DNA of 64,000 nucleotides. Source: Phormidium tanganyikae FI6-MK23 (lineage in GTDB: Bacteria > Cyanobacteriota > Cyanobacteriia > Leptolyngbyales > Leptolyngbyaceae). The notes beneath the pieces were generated by a model that was given only the letters and a program-made list of their open reading frames with translations, was not told the origin of the DNA and did not search any database. The position numbers were made by a program, and so were the translations under genes. Location of the stretch: positions 186,001-250,000 of the forward strand of contig JAHHHU010000003.1 in assembly GCA_019359175.1 (NCBI GenBank), in the 5' to 3' direction. Each line of letters opens with the position of its first letter. The stretch's first letter is position 1. Below, in pieces: positions 12,277 through 21,434 of the stretch.

Positions 12277-12903
12277 TCAAAAGTCGAGAGCCGCAGCGAG
12301 TTGACGCAGTGTTCTCAAACTAGACAAAGACCCTCGAATCAATCGACTCGCCGCGATCGGCTTTTGGATCATTGCTTTTGCCATCGGAATCGTTTGAATT
12401 TTGCCGTTAGAATCAATCACGCCGCTGAGATCTGGCAAATCCCCTTGCAAATCGTCGCTCACGACCCGCAGCATCGCCACTGATAGATGAGACAGAATTG
12501 CGAATCCTTCCATATCGACGACTTCGGCGCAGTAGGTTTTGCCTAGATCACGCTTTTCGATCGCAGAACAAATCACGCGATCGCTGGTCAATCCGAGAAC
12601 TGGGGAAACTTGTAGCTGCGCTTGGAGTCGTTGAGTTAGATCGCGATCGCACTCTTTTACCTTTCCTGAGAAATCGACACAGGCGCGATAAAGCGCGATC
12701 GTGCTGACTTCAAACTGAGGCGCTAAACTGCCGCAGAGTCCCATTACTAGAATTTCGGTGGCATCCGAGAAGTGATCGAGATCCCGAACAGCGGCTCCAC
12801 CTGCCGGAATAGGTATCACTCTAGGCGGATTTGACCGGGATTGAACTCCCCGATAAACGGCTTGATATTCTGCACCTTGAGGGACGAGAATGACGGAAAC
12901 CAT
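12277..12903 (-). CDS. hpnG: Nucleoside phosphorylase family protein, probable HpnG
   Basis: 208 residues, soluble. The fold is of the PNP/UDP phosphorylase family: an N-terminal LVPQGAEYQAV, the VMGLCGSL strand-turn, and the EVVDMEGFAIL motif where Glu and Met bind the ribose. The length is short, like the hopanoid-associated phosphorylases (HpnG) that release adenine from adenosylhopane to give ribosylhopane phosphate. The assignment rests on the neighbours: it is divergently paired with the RND-hpnA-hpnH operon, whose last gene makes adenosylhopane. Without that context it could be an MTA/SAH nucleosidase relative. No ribosome site stronger than GA-rich bases precedes the ATG. Confidence 0.7.
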   Translation of the reverse strand: MVSVILVPQGAEYQAVYRGVQSRSNPPRVIPIPAGGAAVRDLDHFSDATEILVMGLCGSLAPQFEVSTIALYRACVDFSGKVKECDRDLTQRLQAQLQVSPVLGLTSDRVICSAIEKRDLGKTYCAEVVDMEGFAILSHLSVAMLRVVSDDLQGDLPDLSGVIDSNGKIQTIPMAKAMIQKPIAASRLIRGSLSSLRTLRQLAAALDF

Positions 12904-13023: not shown

Positions 13024-15630
13024 ATGGATTTGCCCACTCCAACTCCCACATCGCGGGAGCGTTTTAATATCTCACGTCTCGCGATCGCAAAGCCTGCCAT
13101 TACGATTTGCGTTTGGCTTTTTATTACTGTTGCTGGACTGTTTGCATTCAGTTCGCTGAAGTATGCGCTGTTTCCTGATGTTACTTTTCCGGTGGTCGTT
13201 GTAAATGCAGAAGCGCCGCTGACGGTGACGACTGAAACGGAGAAGCAGGTCACACAGCCGATCGAGCAGGCATTGCGATCGCTCGAAGGTTTAGATGATA
13301 TTCGGTCTTCGACGTATCCGAATCAAACGGCGGTGAGTCTCTCGTTTGGAGTAGGCACAAGTTTGGAGAAATCGAGCCAAACGGTTGAAGCAGCCATGAA
13401 GTCGATCGCGCTGCCGAAAGATACGAAGTACAAAGTGATCGCGCTGAATTTGAACGAATCAGCAGCGGTGAGTTATGCGATCGAAAGCACTTCGCGCAAT
13501 CTCCAAGATTTAGCCACGCTCACAACGAATCAGATTGTTTCTCAATTGGCGAAAATTCCCGGTGTGCTGAAAGTTAACGTGTTGGGAAGTGGGGGAAATC
13601 AAGCGGGGGCGACACTGACGCGATTTGATGCGAAAGATTCGATCGCGATTCAAGTCATCAAGCGAGGAGATGCCAATACGCTTGAGGTTGTAAATGCTGT
13701 TGAGCAAGAAATTTCAACGCTGAGAAAAAACATTTCGGATGTGAAAATCACACTTGCAGCAACGCAAGCAGAATACATTCAGAAAGCAACACATTCGACG
13801 ATCGAGGCATTGATCGAAGCGATCGTTTTGTCGATCGTGGTGATTTTTCCGTTTCTCCGAAGTTGGCGTGCAACATTGATTTCAGCCTTAGCGATTCCGG
13901 TCTCGCTGCTTGGAACGTTTATCGTGATGGCGTTTTTCGGCTTCAATTTGGAAACGATTACGTTACTTGCATTGGCGTTGGTAATCGGGAGCGTGGTCGA
14001 TGATGCGATCGTCGATGTCGAAAATATTAGCCGACATATTGAAGAAGGAGCAACTCCAAGAGAAGCCGCACTTCATGCCACAAATGAGATCGGTTTAACG
14101 GTAACGGCGGCGACTTTTACAGCGGTTGCAGTCTTTTTACCGATCGGGCTAATGGGCGGTGTGATCGGGCAGTTCTTTAAGCCATTTGGGATCACCGTTT
14201 CTGCTGCGATGATTATGTCGCTGCTAGTCGCGCGGACTTTATCGCCAGTTTTATCGCTCTATTTGCTGCGAAAACGTCCGGGACAGAACCGCGATCGTAC
14301 GCTTGGGATTTGGTCACGTTTTAATGATGCTTATCACCGCTTGTTGCAGTGGTCGTTGCGGCATCGGGCGATCGTGGTGGGAATTGCGCTTGCGAGTTTT
14401 GCAGCGGGAATTGCAATCATCCCGATGATTCCACAAGGATTTATTCCGAAGCTCGATCGAGGCGAATTTAATGTTCGATACAATGCGCCACTGCCAAAGA
14501 TCCCTTCTCAAGAAGAAATTACTTCGATCGTGGCAGCAGGTGGACAGATTCCGCAGATTAATCCGCTGCAAGACTCGCTCAACGTTGCTAAACAGCTTGA
14601 GGATGCGGTGAGAGAATCGCCGGATGTTGAAACGATTTTTACGACTGTGGGATCGCGTGAAGGAGAACCGAATAAAGGTTTACTCTACGTCAAGCTGAAG
14701 GAAAATCATGCGACTCCAACCGCAACGCTGCAAGATCAACTGCGATCGAATCTTCCTCAAATTACCGGAGTTTCCACAAGCGTTGAAGATATTCCCTTTG
14801 TCGAAGCGGGAAGCCAGAAACCGCTTCAGGCATCCCTCAAAGGCGACGATTTAGCAACACTCGAAAAAGCTGGAACTGAGTTAAAAAATCGCTTACAAAC
14901 TATTCCGGGAATTGCTGACGTAACTTTAAGCGGGAGCAGCAATCAAAACGGGATTCAAAAAATCGATCGATTGAACGGACAGCGAGTTGTTTATGTCAGT
15001 GCAAATTTAGGAAAAGACTTACTTTTGGGAGATGCAACCAACCGATTGTTGGCTGAATCAAAACCCATTCTTCCAGCAGGAGTCACCCTCGGTTTAGGCG
15101 GCGATTCTGCGAGTAGTCAGGAGATTTTCGGTAGCTTTGGTAAAACACTAGGACTTTCAGCGCTTTGTATTGTTGTGGTTCTCGTTTGGCTATTTCGGAG
15201 CTTGATTGATCCGATCGTGGTTGCCTTGTCACTTCCATTAGCGCTCGTCGGTGCAATGTTGGCATTGCTAATCACCCAAAGCGATTTTGGCATGATTTCG
15301 CTAATCGGCTTTGTGTTTCTGTTGGGATTGACCAATAAAAATGCAATCCTGATTGTGGATTACATCAATCAACTGAGGCGGGAAGGACTCGATCGCAATG
15401 CTGCCATTCTCAAAGCTGCACCGATTCGACTACGACCGATCATGATGACCACAGCAGCAACGATTCTAGGGATGGTTCCGATCGCAATTGGGTTAGGCGC
15501 GGGATCAGAACTGCGATCTCCGATGGCAGTCTCGATCGCGGGTGGATTGATTACTTCTACGTTGCTCAGTTTGTTTGTTGTGCCTGTGATTTATACCTTG
15601 CTCGATGATCTCAAACCAAAAAAACGATGA
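13024..15630 (+). CDS. AcrB-family RND permease lacking docking subdomains
   Basis: 868 residues, against about 1030-1050 for AcrB. The membrane parts are complete: TM1 at about 27-46, TM2-TM6 at about 258-415, TM7 at 448-468 and TM8-TM12 at about 705-860. The proton-relay residues are present: Asp326-Asp327 in GSVVDDAIVDVEN (TM4) and Lys772 in LTNKNAILIVDY (TM10). The first periplasmic loop is about 205 residues and the second about 235, against roughly 310 each in AcrB. The gaps fall just after GVLKVNVLGS (about residue 188) and after GIADVTLSGS (about 638), exactly where the DN and DC TolC-docking parts belong. No membrane fusion protein or outer-membrane channel gene is nearby. Its stop overlaps the hpnA start by 4 bases, so it is in the hopanoid operon, the position where other bacteria carry the unrelated-looking RND protein HpnN. 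A role in moving hopanoids to the outer leaflet or outer membrane is an inference. Confidence 0.9.
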   Translation: MDLPTPTPTSRERFNISRLAIAKPAITICVWLFITVAGLFAFSSLKYALFPDVTFPVVVVNAEAPLTVTTETEKQVTQPIEQALRSLEGLDDIRSSTYPNQTAVSLSFGVGTSLEKSSQTVEAAMKSIALPKDTKYKVIALNLNESAAVSYAIESTSRNLQDLATLTTNQIVSQLAKIPGVLKVNVLGSGGNQAGATLTRFDAKDSIAIQVIKRGDANTLEVVNAVEQEISTLRKNISDVKITLAATQAEYIQKATHSTIEALIEAIVLSIVVIFPFLRSWRATLISALAIPVSLLGTFIVMAFFGFNLETITLLALALVIGSVVDDAIVDVENISRHIEEGATPREAALHATNEIGLTVTAATFTAVAVFLPIGLMGGVIGQFFKPFGITVSAAMIMSLLVARTLSPVLSLYLLRKRPGQNRDRTLGIWSRFNDAYHRLLQWSLRHRAIVVGIALASFAAGIAIIPMIPQGFIPKLDRGEFNVRYNAPLPKIPSQEEITSIVAAGGQIPQINPLQDSLNVAKQLEDAVRESPDVETIFTTVGSREGEPNKGLLYVKLKENHATPTATLQDQLRSNLPQITGVSTSVEDIPFVEAGSQKPLQASLKGDDLATLEKAGTELKNRLQTIPGIADVTLSGSSNQNGIQKIDRLNGQRVVYVSANLGKDLLLGDATNRLLAESKPILPAGVTLGLGGDSASSQEIFGSFGKTLGLSALCIVVVLVWLFRSLIDPIVVALSLPLALVGAMLALLITQSDFGMISLIGFVFLLGLTNKNAILIVDYINQLRREGLDRNAAILKAAPIRLRPIMMTTAATILGMVPIAIGLGAGSELRSPMAVSIAGGLITSTLLSLFVVPVIYTLLDDLKPKKR

Positions 15631-16616
15631 AAGCATTTGTCACTGGAGGCACTGGATTTGTGGGCGCGAATCTAGTGCGATTGTTGCTCGAACAAGGTTA
15701 CGAAGTTCGAGCGTTAGCGCGTTCCAATGCTCGATTAGATAACTTAAACGGCTTAGAAGTTGAGATTGTAAAAGGTGATCTGAACGATCCTGATTTAGCT
15801 CGATCGATGAAAGGCTGTGATTGTTCATTCCACGTTGCAGCACATTATTCACTGTGGCAAAGCGATCGAGACAGTCTCTACCAAAGCAATGTTTTTGGAA
15901 CTCGCAATGTTCTCGCGGCTGCAAGAAAAGCGGGCGTTGAACGATCAATCTATACCAGTTCGGTTGCCGCGATCGGGATTGATCCTAGCGGTCAGCCTAC
16001 AACCGAACAGTATCAATCACCTGTAGAAAAGCTGATCGGACACTACAAACAATCAAAATACTGGGCAGAACAAGAAGCGATCGTCGCGGCTCAGTTTGGT
16101 CAAGATGTTGTGATTGTGAATCCCAGTACCCCGATCGGCGCGTATGACATCAAACCCACACCAACCGGGGATATTGTTCTGCGATTTTTACAGCGTCGAA
16201 TGCCCTCGTATGTTGAAACTGGATTGAACTTTGTCCATGTCCGCGATGTCGCTTGGGGTCATTTGCTCGCATTGCAAAACGGAAAAAGCGGCGATCGCTA
16301 TATTCTCGGCAATCAAAACCTCAGCCTGAAACAACTTTTAGATGAATTGAGTCAGATTACTGGACTCAGTGCGCCTGCTCGATCGGTTCCGGTCTGGTTG
16401 CCGCTGAGTGTGGCGTGGATTGACGAAGCGATTCTAACAAAATTCGGTAAAACACCCTCGATCCCAATCGATGGGGTGAGAATGTCAAAACAACCAATGT
16501 ACTACAATTCAGAAAAAGCAATCCGCGAACTTGGACTTCCCCAAACGCCAATTCGCACCGCTTTAGAAGATGCCGTAAACTGGTTTCAAGAAAATTCATC
16601 CATCAGGACAGAGTGA
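15627..16616 (+). CDS. hpnA: Hopanoid-associated sugar epimerase HpnA
   Basis: 329 residues. It is an extended SDR (NAD-dependent epimerase/dehydratase): the cofactor motif [17 protein letters not shown] opens the protein, the catalytic YKQSK (YxxxK) is at about residue 139, and [18 protein letters not shown] is the phrase characteristic of the HpnA subgroup. It is thought to act on a sugar group of extended hopanoids, though the exact reaction is not settled. It is coupled to the RND gene (ATGA overlap) and followed 10 bases later by hpnH. Confidence 0.9.
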
Positions 16617-16626
16617 GGAGATAGCG

Positions 16627-17640
16627 ATGGGAGTTCCTTTACAGCAAGTAGTCGGAGTCGGCTCTTACCTAGTCAAACAGCGGTTAATGGGTCGAAAGCG
16701 CTTCCCATTAGTATTGATGCTCGAACCGCTTTTCCGCTGCAATCTTGCGTGTACCGGCTGCGGCAAAATTCAGCACCCCGTCGAAATTCTTAAGCAAAAT
16801 CTCACCCCAGAACAATGTTTCGCGGCGGCTGAGGAATGTGGTGCGCCTGTGGTGTCGATTCCGGGAGGCGAACCGCTGCTGCATCCTCAAATCGGGGAGA
16901 TTGTTCAGGGATTAGTCGATCGTAAAAAATTCATCTATCTCTGCACCAACGGCATTCTGCTAGAGAAGAGCTTCGATAAGTTCAAACCTTCGCCGTATTT
17001 CACCTTTATGGTGCATTTAGACGGGATGCGCGACTGGCATGATCAATGCGTCGATCGTAAAGGGGTGTTCGATACCGCAGTGAAAGCGATCAAAGCGGCA
17101 AAGGCGCGAGGCTTCCAGGTCAACACCAACACGACGATTTTCGATGGTGCTAAACCCGAAGAAATGCACGAATTCTTCGATTTTCTGACTGAACTTGGGG
17201 TCGATGGAATGCAGCTTTCTCCGGGCTATTCCTACGAGTGGGCACCGGATCAAGACCATTTTCTTAAGCGCGAACAAACGAAAGCCCTGTTCCGCCAAAT
17301 TCTTGCCCCGATGAAAACAGGGAAGCGATGGAATTTTAGCCACAATCCGCTGTTTCTTGATTTTCTCATTGGTGAGAAAGACTATGAATGCACGCCTTGG
17401 GGCAGTCCGAGCTATAGCGTTTTGGGCTGGCAAAAGCCTTGTTATCTTCTGAACGAAGGACATTACAAGACGTTCCGGGAGCTACTCGACAAGACCGATT
17501 GGAATCAATACGGGCGCAAGAGTGGTAATCCTCAGTGTGCAGATTGTATGGTGCATTGCGGGTATGAACCGACGGCGGCAGTCGATGCGATGCAGCCTCA
17601 GAACATTGGACGGGCAGTGACCTCAGTGTTGGGAGGATAG
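16627..17640 (+). CDS. hpnH: Adenosyl-hopene transferase HpnH (radical SAM)
   Basis: 337 residues. It uses a radical from S-adenosylmethionine to join an adenosyl group to the hopene side chain, the first committed step to C35 hopanoids. The radical SAM cluster cysteines are in CNLACTGC (residues about 37-44), followed by the [11 protein letters not shown] motif. C-terminal cysteines ([17 protein letters not shown]) mark the HpnH/SPASM-like tail. A strong GAGGAG ribosome site lies nine bases before the ATG. It is the last gene of the operon with the RND permease and hpnA; squalene-hopene cyclase is not in this window. Confidence 0.95.
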
Positions 17641-17804: not shown

Positions 17805-17861
17805 AACCCCCAAGCATTCTGAACCGAAAGCAATTTGTGTGTACACAGTAGCTTTTCAACA

Positions 17862-20800
17862 ATGTCTGAATCGACAAATCAGTGGCAGTTTTGGATCGAT
17901 CGCGGGGGCACGTTCACCGATATTGTGGCGCAGCGTCCCGATGGCTCGATCGCAATTCACAAACTCCTATCCGAAAATCCAGAACGCTACACGGATGCGG
18001 CAATTCAAGGGATTCGAGAACTGCTTGGAGTCGAGCAAGATCAGCCAATTCCATCGGATCAAATTGCTGTCGTGAAAATGGGAACGACGGTCGCAACCAA
18101 CGCATTGTTAGAGCGAAAAGGCGATCGTACTTTGCTGTTGATCACCAAAGGCTTTCGAGATGCGTTACGAATTGGCTACCAAAATCGCCCGAACATTTTC
18201 GCTCAACACATTGTTCTACCGGAAATGCTGTACGAGCAAGTGATCGAAGTTGAAGAACGCTACAGCGCTCAGGGTGAAGAACTGTGTCCACTGTTGATCA
18301 CGGATGATTTTTTACGATCGCTCCAGTCCGCCTACGATGCTGGAATTCGCGCTTGTGCGATCGTGCTTTTACATGGATATCGCTATCCCAATCACGAACA
18401 GCAACTTTCAGCGATCGTTCAAAATATTGGGTTTACACAACTCTCGCTTTCTCATGCAGTAAGTCCGTTGATGAAATTGGTCAGTCGCGGTGATACTACT
18501 GTCGTCGATGCTTATCTTTCTCCAATTTTGCGGCGCTATGTCGAGCAAGTCAGTGCTGCACTGAGCGCAGAATTAATGTTTATGCAGTCGAATGGCGGAT
18601 TGGTCGAAGCTCAACGATTTCAGGGCAAAGATAGTATTTTGTCAGGACCAGCAGGCGGCATTGTGGGAGCGGTGAAAACAAGCGCGATCGCAGGATTCGA
18701 TCGGATCATTGGCTTTGATATGGGCGGAACTTCTACGGATGTTTCACACTTTAGCGGACAGTATGAGCGCACGTTTGAAACCGAAATTGCAGGCGTGAGA
18801 TTGCGATCGCCGATGATGGCAATTCACACGGTTGCGGCGGGGGGAGGTTCGATTCTTCAGTTTGATGGCAGTCGTTATCGAGTCGGGCCCGACTCGGCAG
18901 GCGCAGATCCAGGCCCTGCTTGCTATCGACGTGGCGGACCTTTAACCATCACAGATTGCAATGTGATGGTAGGAAAGCTTCAAGCTGAGTTCTTCCCGGC
19001 TGTGTTTGGGCAAGTGGGTAACTTACCGTTAGATGGTGCGATCGTGCAGCAACAGTTCACCGATCTCGCCGCCGAGATTCAAGCAAAAACAGGGAACTCT
19101 CGAACACCCGAACAAGTTGCAGAAGGCTTTTTAGCAATTGCGATCGACAAAATGGCAACGGCGATCAAGCAAATCTCAATCCAGCGCGGATATGATGTCA
19201 CCGATTACACGCTCTGTTGTTTTGGCGGTGCAGGTGGACAACACGCCTGCTTGATTGCAGAAGCTTTGGGGATGTCGCGAATTTTTATTCATCCCTATGC
19301 AGGGGTGTTGTCAGCCTATGGAATGGGTTTAGCAGATGTGCGATCGCTTAAAGAACGCGCGATCGAAACGGTGTTAACAGAACCCTTGATTCCAACCTTA
19401 GAGCAACAGTTCGAGAGCCTTGCACCCCAAAATTTTACGGCTGTTCAAGTGCTGAAAACAGTTCATTTGAAGTATGCGGGAACAGATACAACTTTACCGA
19501 TCGAGTTTGGAACCTTTGATGCGATTTGCGATCATTTCAATCAAACCTACACACAACGCTATGGATTTACAATGTCCGGCAAGTCGTTGATTGTTGAAGC
19601 AATTTCTGTAGAGGTCATTCATCCTGCTGCGATGCCGAGAGAGACGATTCAGAAAAGTGAGCGAACCTCTGCACTCACACCCACTGCGATCGTTCCAATC
19701 TACATGAAAGGCAACTGGCATCAAGCTCCCGTTTATCAGCGTGAACAATTGCAACCTGGTGATCGCATTTTGGGTGCAGCTTTGATCATCGAATCTACTG
19801 GCACAAATGTGATTGAGCCTGGATGGTCGGCTGAGATCGCGGCTCAAAATCATTTAGTCCTCGATCGACAAGAGAAAAGCGCTGGACTTAGAACAATCGA
19901 ACTTAGTGAAACGCCTGATCCGGTATTGTTGGAGATTTTTAACAATCTAATTCGAGCGATCGCGGAAGAAATGGGCATCACTCTGCAAAACACGAGCTAT
20001 TCCGTCAACATCAAAGAACGCTTAGATTTCTCCTGCGCGATCTTTGATCAATCTGGTCAACTGATTGCAAATGCGCCTCACATTCCTGTACATCTCGGCT
20101 CGATGAGTGAGAGCGTCAAAAGCTTAATCGAGGCAAAAGGAACACAAATTCGACCAGGCGATGTCTATGTTTCCAACAATCCCTACAATGGTGGGACACA
20201 CTTACCCGATATCACAGTCATTACGCCTGTGTTTGTTTCCGATGCTGCACCCAGCTTTTATGTAGCTTCGCGCGGACATCATGCAGATATTGGCGGCATC
20301 ACACCCGGGTCAATGCCCCCGAACAGTACCTCGATCGACCAAGAAGGCATCTTATTTGATAACTTTCAACTGGTACATCGAGGACAATTTCTTGAAGCTG
20401 AATTACTCGATCGACTCACCGCAACACTTTATCCCGTTCGCAATGTTCAGCAGAATATTGCAGACTTGCAAGCGCAAATCGCAGCCAACGCGCGGGGCGC
20501 TCAAGAACTACAACAAATGGCGTACCGCTACAGGCTTGAAACGGTTCAAACCTATATGCAGCACATTCAAGACAACGCAGAAGAATCCGTCAGACAAGCC
20601 ATTACAGTATTGCAGAATGGAAGCTTTACTTATCCAATGGATGATGGGACTCAGATTCGAGTGAACATTGAGATTGATCAAGCGAATCGAAGCGCGATCG
20701 TCGATTTCACCGGAACCTCTCCACAGCAACCAAACAATCTCAATGCTCCCCTCGCTATCTGTAAAGCCGTCGTTTTATATGTGTTTAGAACCTTGGTGAA

Positions 20801-21434
20801 GGATGATATTCCGCTAAATGCGGGCTGTCTAAAACCGCTCGAAATCATTGTGCCCGAAGGCTGTCTGCTCAATCCTCGCTATCCTGCTGCTGTCGTCGCG
20901 GGTAATGTTGAGACTTCTCAAGCGATCGCGAATACGCTCTATGGTGCATTAGGAATCTTAGCCGCCGCTCAAGGCACAATGAACAATTTCACATTTGGAA
21001 ATGAGCAATATCAATACTATGAAACAATCTGCGGGGGATCAGGGGCAGGTGCAACCTTCAATGGAACTGATGCGGTACAAACCCATATGACCAACTCTCG
21101 ACTTACTGATCCTGAAGTTTTAGAATGGCGGTTTCCCGTGTTGGTTGATCGTTTTGCGATTCGTCCCGATAGTGGCGGTAAAGGAAAGCATTCGGGTGGA
21201 AATGGCGTAATGCGTCAGATTCGATTTCGGGAAGCGATGAGCGCAGCGATTTTGTCAGGACATCGACGGATTCCGCCATTTGGATTAAGCGGGGGTGAAT
21301 CAGGCGAAGTTGGGCGAAATTGGATCAAGCGCAACACTGGGAAAATTGAAGCGATCGAGAGTAAAGCTGAAGTACAGATGCAGCCTGGAGATGTGTTTGT
21401 GATTGAGACACCGGGCGGCGGTGGTTTTGGTTAG
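17862..21434 (+). CDS. 5-oxoprolinase / hydantoinase A-B fusion
   Basis: 1190 residues from the ATG at 17862 ([20 protein letters not shown]); a GTG 27 bases earlier is in frame but adds residues foreign to the family. The N-terminal half is HyuA-like: the phosphate-binding [10 protein letters not shown], then [14 protein letters not shown]-type motif (seen as [11 protein letters not shown]), and [16 protein letters not shown]. The C-terminal half is HyuB-like: [31 protein letters not shown] and [16 protein letters not shown] with metal-binding His/Asp. The single-chain arrangement is that of ATP-dependent 5-oxoprolinase (OplAH), which opens 5-oxoproline to glutamate in glutathione turnover. 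A related hydantoin substrate cannot be excluded. It stands alone. Confidence 0.92.

Follow-up and report, generated by a model that had tools for sequence, protein, structure and literature searches.

The window, by which we mean the whole stretch of 64,000 nucleotides that was analyzed, contains an intact reading frame for an RND permease of 868 aa (P0001) next to genes for the synthesis of hopanoids, which are sterol-like lipids (Table 1). The stop codon of the permease gene overlaps the start of hpnA by 4 nt, hpnH follows 10 nt past hpnA, and the P0001 gene is the first gene of a putative RND–hpnA–hpnH operon. Downstream from hpnH, the window also encodes a fused hydantoinase A/B (oxoprolinase-type) protein of 1199 aa (17835–21434). 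We refer to P0001 and its family as short RND proteins.

Table 1. Genes at the locus and structural elements of P0001, in window coordinates (residue numbers are those of P0001)
Feature	Position	Strand	Basis
HpnG-like phosphorylase, divergent neighbor	12277..12903	-	TIGR03468 59 bits, below cut-off 187
Docking-less ACR_tran-type RND permease P0001, 868 aa	13024..15630	+	ORF; PF00873 622 bits
TM1 (residues 16-44)	13069..13155	+	AF2 secondary structure, AcrB alignment
Porter subdomain PN1 (residues 50-142)	13171..13449	+	AF2, alignment
Porter subdomain PN2 (residues 147-247), contiguous	13462..13764	+	AF2, alignment
Short linker (residues 188-197) at missing DN (AcrB 182-270)	13585..13614	+	Alignment
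TM2-TM6 (residues 249-414)	13768..14265	+	AF2, alignment
Proton-relay Asp pair D326-D327 (AcrB D407-D408)	13999..14004	+	Alignment; invariant 35/35
21-residue insertion at PC1 start (residues 491-511), not in AcrB	14494..14556	+	AF2, alignment
Porter subdomains PC1 + PC2 (residues 512-693), PC2 contiguous	14557..15102	+	AF2, alignment
Short linker (residues 636-646) at missing DC (AcrB 723-808)	14929..14961	+	Alignment
TM8-TM12 (residues 694-862)	15103..15609	+	AF2, alignment
Proton-relay Lys K772 (AcrB K940)	15337..15339	+	Alignment
hpnA, hopanoid-associated sugar epimerase	15627..16616	+	TIGR03466 475 bits, cut-off 368
hpnH, adenosyl-hopene transferase	16627..17640	+	TIGR03470 551 bits, cut-off 225

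Family membership and the missing docking subdomains

By descent, P0001 is a member of the ACR_tran family (AcrB/AcrD/AcrF, PF00873), which it matched with 622 bits, against 63 bits for MMPL. The PF00873 match was made up of three stretches (profile positions 1–180, 264–715, and 797–1020) and skipped positions 181–263 and 716–796, so that by the profile alone two blocks of ∼80 positions each are missing. The cut-offs of the NCBIfam RND permease subfamilies were not reached (584 bits against 1250 for RND_permease_2; lower for the others).

We used L-INS-i to align P0001 with ∼40 other RND proteins, both short and full length, and with Escherichia coli K-12 AcrB (1049 aa). AcrB residues 182–270 (the DN subdomain, 89 residues) and 723–808 (the DC subdomain, 86 residues) were absent from P0001; an earlier MAFFT --auto alignment had spread the DC gap across AcrB 635–804, which resolved into a single clean gap with L-INS-i and more full-length rows. 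The gaps start directly after GVLKVNVLGS (DN) and GIADVTLSGS (DC) and fall nowhere else in the loops. This is where a sequence-only reading of the locus had placed them by eye, with both periplasmic loops put at about 80–100 residues short; its length of 868 residues for the protein was also right, and its figure of ∼1045 for AcrB should be 1049. Apart from DN and DC, the only notable absences from P0001 are the C-terminal tail and eight residues in the cytoplasmic linker. The same two gaps are present throughout the P0001 family (46%–75% identity) and thus reflect neither chance nor an assembly error. The interval bridging the DN gap spans 9–43 residues across the family and that bridging the DC gap 11–19, and PN2 and PC2 are contiguous because the docking subdomains are absent.

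What remains is the AcrB/HAE-1 plan, the closest to P0001 in sequence and structure: a transmembrane domain, the PN1/PN2/PC1/PC2 fold, and the D-D-K-R-T proton relay. The residues D407/D408, K940, R971, and T978 of AcrB correspond to D326/D327, K772, R802, and T809 of P0001 and do not vary in any of the 35 family rows, in agreement with the earlier statement that the Asp pair and the Lys are kept. P0001 differs from AcrB in the insertion at the start of PC1 (an interval of 22–66 residues in the family, poorly conserved and of low pLDDT) and in the deep pocket, where only F610 of the six deep-pocket phenylalanines examined is still Phe (F539 in P0001) and F628 is replaced by Tyr. Loss of most of these phenylalanines suggests that the substrate has changed relative to AcrB.

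An AlphaFold2 model of the P0001 monomer, computed from a 35-sequence alignment (mean pLDDT 79, pTM 0.74), had 12 TM helices and the four porter modules, and no funnel-like element was seen among them. Superposition on AcrB, which the sequence-only reading had proposed for a trimer and which we ran on this monomer, placed 819–827 of the 868 model residues on AdeB, AcrD, and AcrB (VIA-align; Z ∼52, rmsd 2.7–3.2 Å for the best rows), and Foldseek gave TMq values of ∼0.87, up to 0.88. HpnN was not among the 50 fold rows listed, which says nothing about likeness to HpnN. A funnel built from other segments would have undercut the docking-loss reading; none was seen in the model, and none has been rebuilt in the longer family members (914–1070 aa), whose additional length is found mainly in the cytoplasmic TM6–TM7 linker, with no more than ∼30 extra residues, of low complexity, at the DN site. 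In AcrB, a loop of DN extends into the neighboring protomer. This loop falls inside the stretch missing from P0001, and its loss may therefore alter the oligomeric state.

Gene neighbors and the search for efflux partners

Near the short RND gene we found an HpnG-like gene at 21 of 41 loci, hpnA at 20, and hpnH at 18, in several GTDB families; shc or an HpnB-like glycosyltransferase (both named from sequence, not by a family model) was near it at a few others. At about half of the 41 loci, mostly the more distant ones, the short RND gene is not beside hpnA or hpnH. The HpnG-like gene, perhaps a cyanobacterial HpnG variant, is oriented divergently from the RND gene at about half of the loci. 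At six loci (L057, 10473–10796; L054, L055, L056, L064, and L070) a predicted secreted protein of ∼108 aa with several cysteines is encoded directly upstream on the same strand; it had no Pfam family and is a possible periplasmic partner of the short RND. Just upstream of another intact short RND gene lies a second RND fragment (L050:6414–7118) that is 53% identical to residues 336–540 and perhaps a duplication remnant.

No membrane-fusion protein was found adjacent to the short RND gene at 46 loci (tblastn and profile search), and three weak matches lay near the edges of the stretches taken around them. In contrast, each of the four full-length RND genes in the window's genome has a membrane-fusion protein gene either next to it or separated from it by a single gene. 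Among these four, one (L192:5633–8830; G000:C1) is interrupted by a TAG stop, which leaves frames of 279 and 785 aa.

These counts, together with the disappearance of DN and DC from all short-RND members examined, make it improbable that P0001 still belongs to a tripartite efflux pump whose membrane-fusion protein and TolC are encoded elsewhere and bind the porter domain directly, even though the window's genome encodes several membrane-fusion proteins and a shortened pump with partners is on record. The latter, AmeD of Castellaniella, resembles P0001 as an RND exporter far shorter (787 aa) than AcrB and has been linked to terpenoid hydrocarbons, but it belongs to HAE-3 and not to ACR_tran, and its gene comes with those of one outer-membrane and two periplasmic proteins (PMC6394551). 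Having looked for the docking subdomains and for an adjacent membrane-fusion protein gene and found neither, we do not file P0001 as an HAE-1 tripartite efflux pump. The proposal of the sequence-only reading that the protein works without a TolC-like channel fits this gene neighborhood.

Co-occurrence and co-loss with hopanoid synthesis

We examined 386 genomes drawn from the phylum. Hopene cyclase (shc, taken as a TIGR01507 match over cut-off) was detected in 86 and HpnH in 84. A search for permeases of ∼870 residues in other cyanobacteria, as had been suggested from the sequence, recovered the short RND in 75 out of 386 genomes (71 strong matches and four more by a PF00873 search among shc-positive genomes), with intact frames of ∼870–930 aa in dozens of them. 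All 75 carry shc and 73 carry HpnH; among shc-positive Cyanobacteriia, 75 out of 84 have the short RND. Where a complete shc was missing (300 genomes), we found no intact short RND; most of these genomes were checked at the strict initial threshold only. We also ran profile A2, built across the DN junction, on 27 shc-negative relatives and on nine shc-positive genomes without the gene, and the junction was crossed only by a decayed copy in genome G385.

The association holds within lineages. Six of the seven GTDB families polymorphic for shc were fully concordant with the short RND (f2, f7, f11, f13, f15, and f19), as were three of three polymorphic genera; in the discordant family, f12, both shc-positive genomes are without the short RND. 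Fisher's exact P for co-occurrence was ∼1e-68, a value that ignores phylogeny and is to be read with the within-family pattern. Nine Cyanobacteriia with shc and hpnH, from families f12, f17, and f18, have neither the short RND nor HpnN (G085, G089, G159, G179, G241, G247, G280, G296, and G374); the short RND is therefore not indispensable.

G385 belongs to family f7, most genomes of which have both genes. Its short RND gene (L218:5255–7499; G385:C1) is broken into four frame pieces, carries an in-frame stop, and lacks its C-terminal end; its shc is a fragment with stops, its hpnH is cut to the first 130 residues, and hpnA remains. In this genome the transporter has decayed jointly with the hopanoid pathway. 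The short RND is tied to the pathway by operon-like linkage, co-occurrence, and co-loss.

The G385 copy also shows what true decay looks like in this family, and it looks different from P0001. That P0001 is itself a decayed or mis-assembled, non-functional AcrB-type pump has its shortened length and nothing further in its favor, and we give this next to no credence in view of the intact frames in dozens of genomes, the invariant proton relay, the conserved gene order, and a single ancient origin. A pseudogene or frameshift artefact was rejected on the same family conservation and on the comparison with the G385 remnant.

Origin, relation to HpnN, and proposed function

In a tree that included 23 short forms, with the DN and DC columns excluded, the short forms made up one clade (SH-aLRT 100) whose sister group was full-length cyanobacterial RND proteins (95). 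This topology argues that DN and DC were lost from an ACR_tran pump, most likely in a single event, and that the short form was not inherited from HpnN. A wide contig search gave at least two short forms, both cyanobacterial, among the 80 loci listed. Profile A2, which matched Okeania over positions 2–221, gave no above-threshold match crossing the junction in 666 genomes of three phyla, namely, those of Bosea (398 genomes, best seven candidates per genome), Bryobacteraceae (149), and Rhodopirellula (119); the best matches outside Cyanobacteria started at profile position 64–73, in frames of >1000 aa. With scoring limited to the best seven candidates, and with two of the empty phylum searches run without a positive control inside their own phyla, this result is no more than suggestive of an absence of the short RND beyond Cyanobacteria.

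In proteobacteria, hopanoids reach the outer membrane by way of HpnN (PMC8277102, PMC12583986), and P0001 resembles this transporter in several ways: a length of ∼870 aa (the HpnN model has 862 positions), no TolC-docking funnel, and a link to hopanoid genes, with the P0001-type gene likewise placed among them and restricted to shc-positive genomes. These likenesses could be read as orthology, which we consider extremely improbable. P0001 scored 32.6 bits against the HpnN model TIGR03480 (cut-off 751.85) and 622 bits against ACR_tran, whereas in Pfam an HpnN locus had MMPL as its sole match, and the sister group of the short forms is full-length cyanobacterial ACR_tran proteins. HpnN further differs in being an HAE-3/MMPL-family dimer with helical PD3/PD4 inserts (PMC8277102). 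On model score, Pfam family, and tree we rejected an HpnN identity, and P0001 is not to be filed as HpnN, although it probably works like it. HpnN itself was found in none of the 80 shc-positive genomes on which TIGR03480 was run; as a control, the same model detects HpnN (E < 1e-200) within the order to which a Bosea genome belongs.

Another RND protein encoded beside sterol-lipid pathway genes is BstA of Methylococcus, an MMPL-type sterol transporter whose periplasmic domain binds sterols (PMC10942540). BstA has the partners BstB and BstC; beside the cyanobacterial gene, conserved partners of this kind were not seen at 41 loci.

Loss of docking, presence only in genomes of hopanoid makers, and hopanoid gene neighbors together point to P0001 as a probable hopanoid transporter, and probably the one missing from cyanobacteria. 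We consider it likely that P0001 is a proton-driven exporter of the ACR_tran lineage that lost its TolC-docking funnel once in cyanobacteria and joined the hopanoid pathway. With somewhat less assurance, we favor the view that docking loss converted a drug-efflux-type RND pump into the cyanobacterial hopanoid transporter, a convergent replacement of HpnN; an HAE-1-derived protein would then have converged with HpnN in role. Under this proposal, the proton motive force would drive export of hopanoids from the inner membrane, with no TolC-type conduit involved. The cargo (hopene, bacteriohopanepolyols, or an intermediate) would be picked up at the porter cleft or in the outer leaflet of the inner membrane, and the Asp-Asp-Lys proton cycle would drive the conformational change of the porter. 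Release would take place at the porter's open top, to the periplasm, a carrier, or the outer membrane, not into a sealed AcrA/TolC tube. The short RND would thereby fill in cyanobacteria the role that HpnN has in proteobacteria. The hopanoids of Nostoc punctiforme reside chiefly in the akinete outer membrane (PMC3883690), and there must therefore be a path by which they reach it. The sequence-only reading had raised the hand-over of lipid to the periplasm or the outer leaflet; the strict link to hopanoid genes favors this idea, and lipid transport itself we infer.

Genome linkage and co-occurrence identify the pathway and not the substrate, and co-occurrence is also compatible with another role in the hopanoid program. 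The protein could accordingly act on squalene, on a pathway intermediate, or on another lipid that has to be repositioned when hopanoids are made. We hold such a substrate to be unlikely, though clearly the strongest competitor to hopanoid transport, since HpnN already shows that an RND protein devoid of a docking domain can be a dedicated hopanoid transporter (PMC8277102, PMC12583986), and since HpnN is absent from the 80 shc-positive cyanobacteria tested.

A literature search that covered few subscription journals returned no paper tying a cyanobacterial RND protein to hopanoids and no description of a docking-less ACR_tran permease; novelty is therefore provisional. Module 65 of Beck et al. 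(2018) groups HpnA, HpnB, HpnF, HpnH, and a phosphorylase as co-occurring across cyanobacteria and lists no RND gene (PMC5862535). The link of an RND gene to the cyanobacterial hopanoid genes is added here and is, provisionally, new.

Hopanes in rocks are taken as traces of ancient bacteria, cyanobacteria included. The short RND is a direct candidate for hopanoid delivery to the outer membrane in cyanobacteria, whose tested genomes are without HpnN. It is also a natural experiment, an AcrB-type engine from which evolution has removed the exit funnel while keeping the proton engine and the porter, which suggests that the funnel of RND proteins is separable from the motor. If our reading is true, docking loss would be one way in which an RND pump can pass from efflux coupled to a channel to handing over lipids within the envelope.
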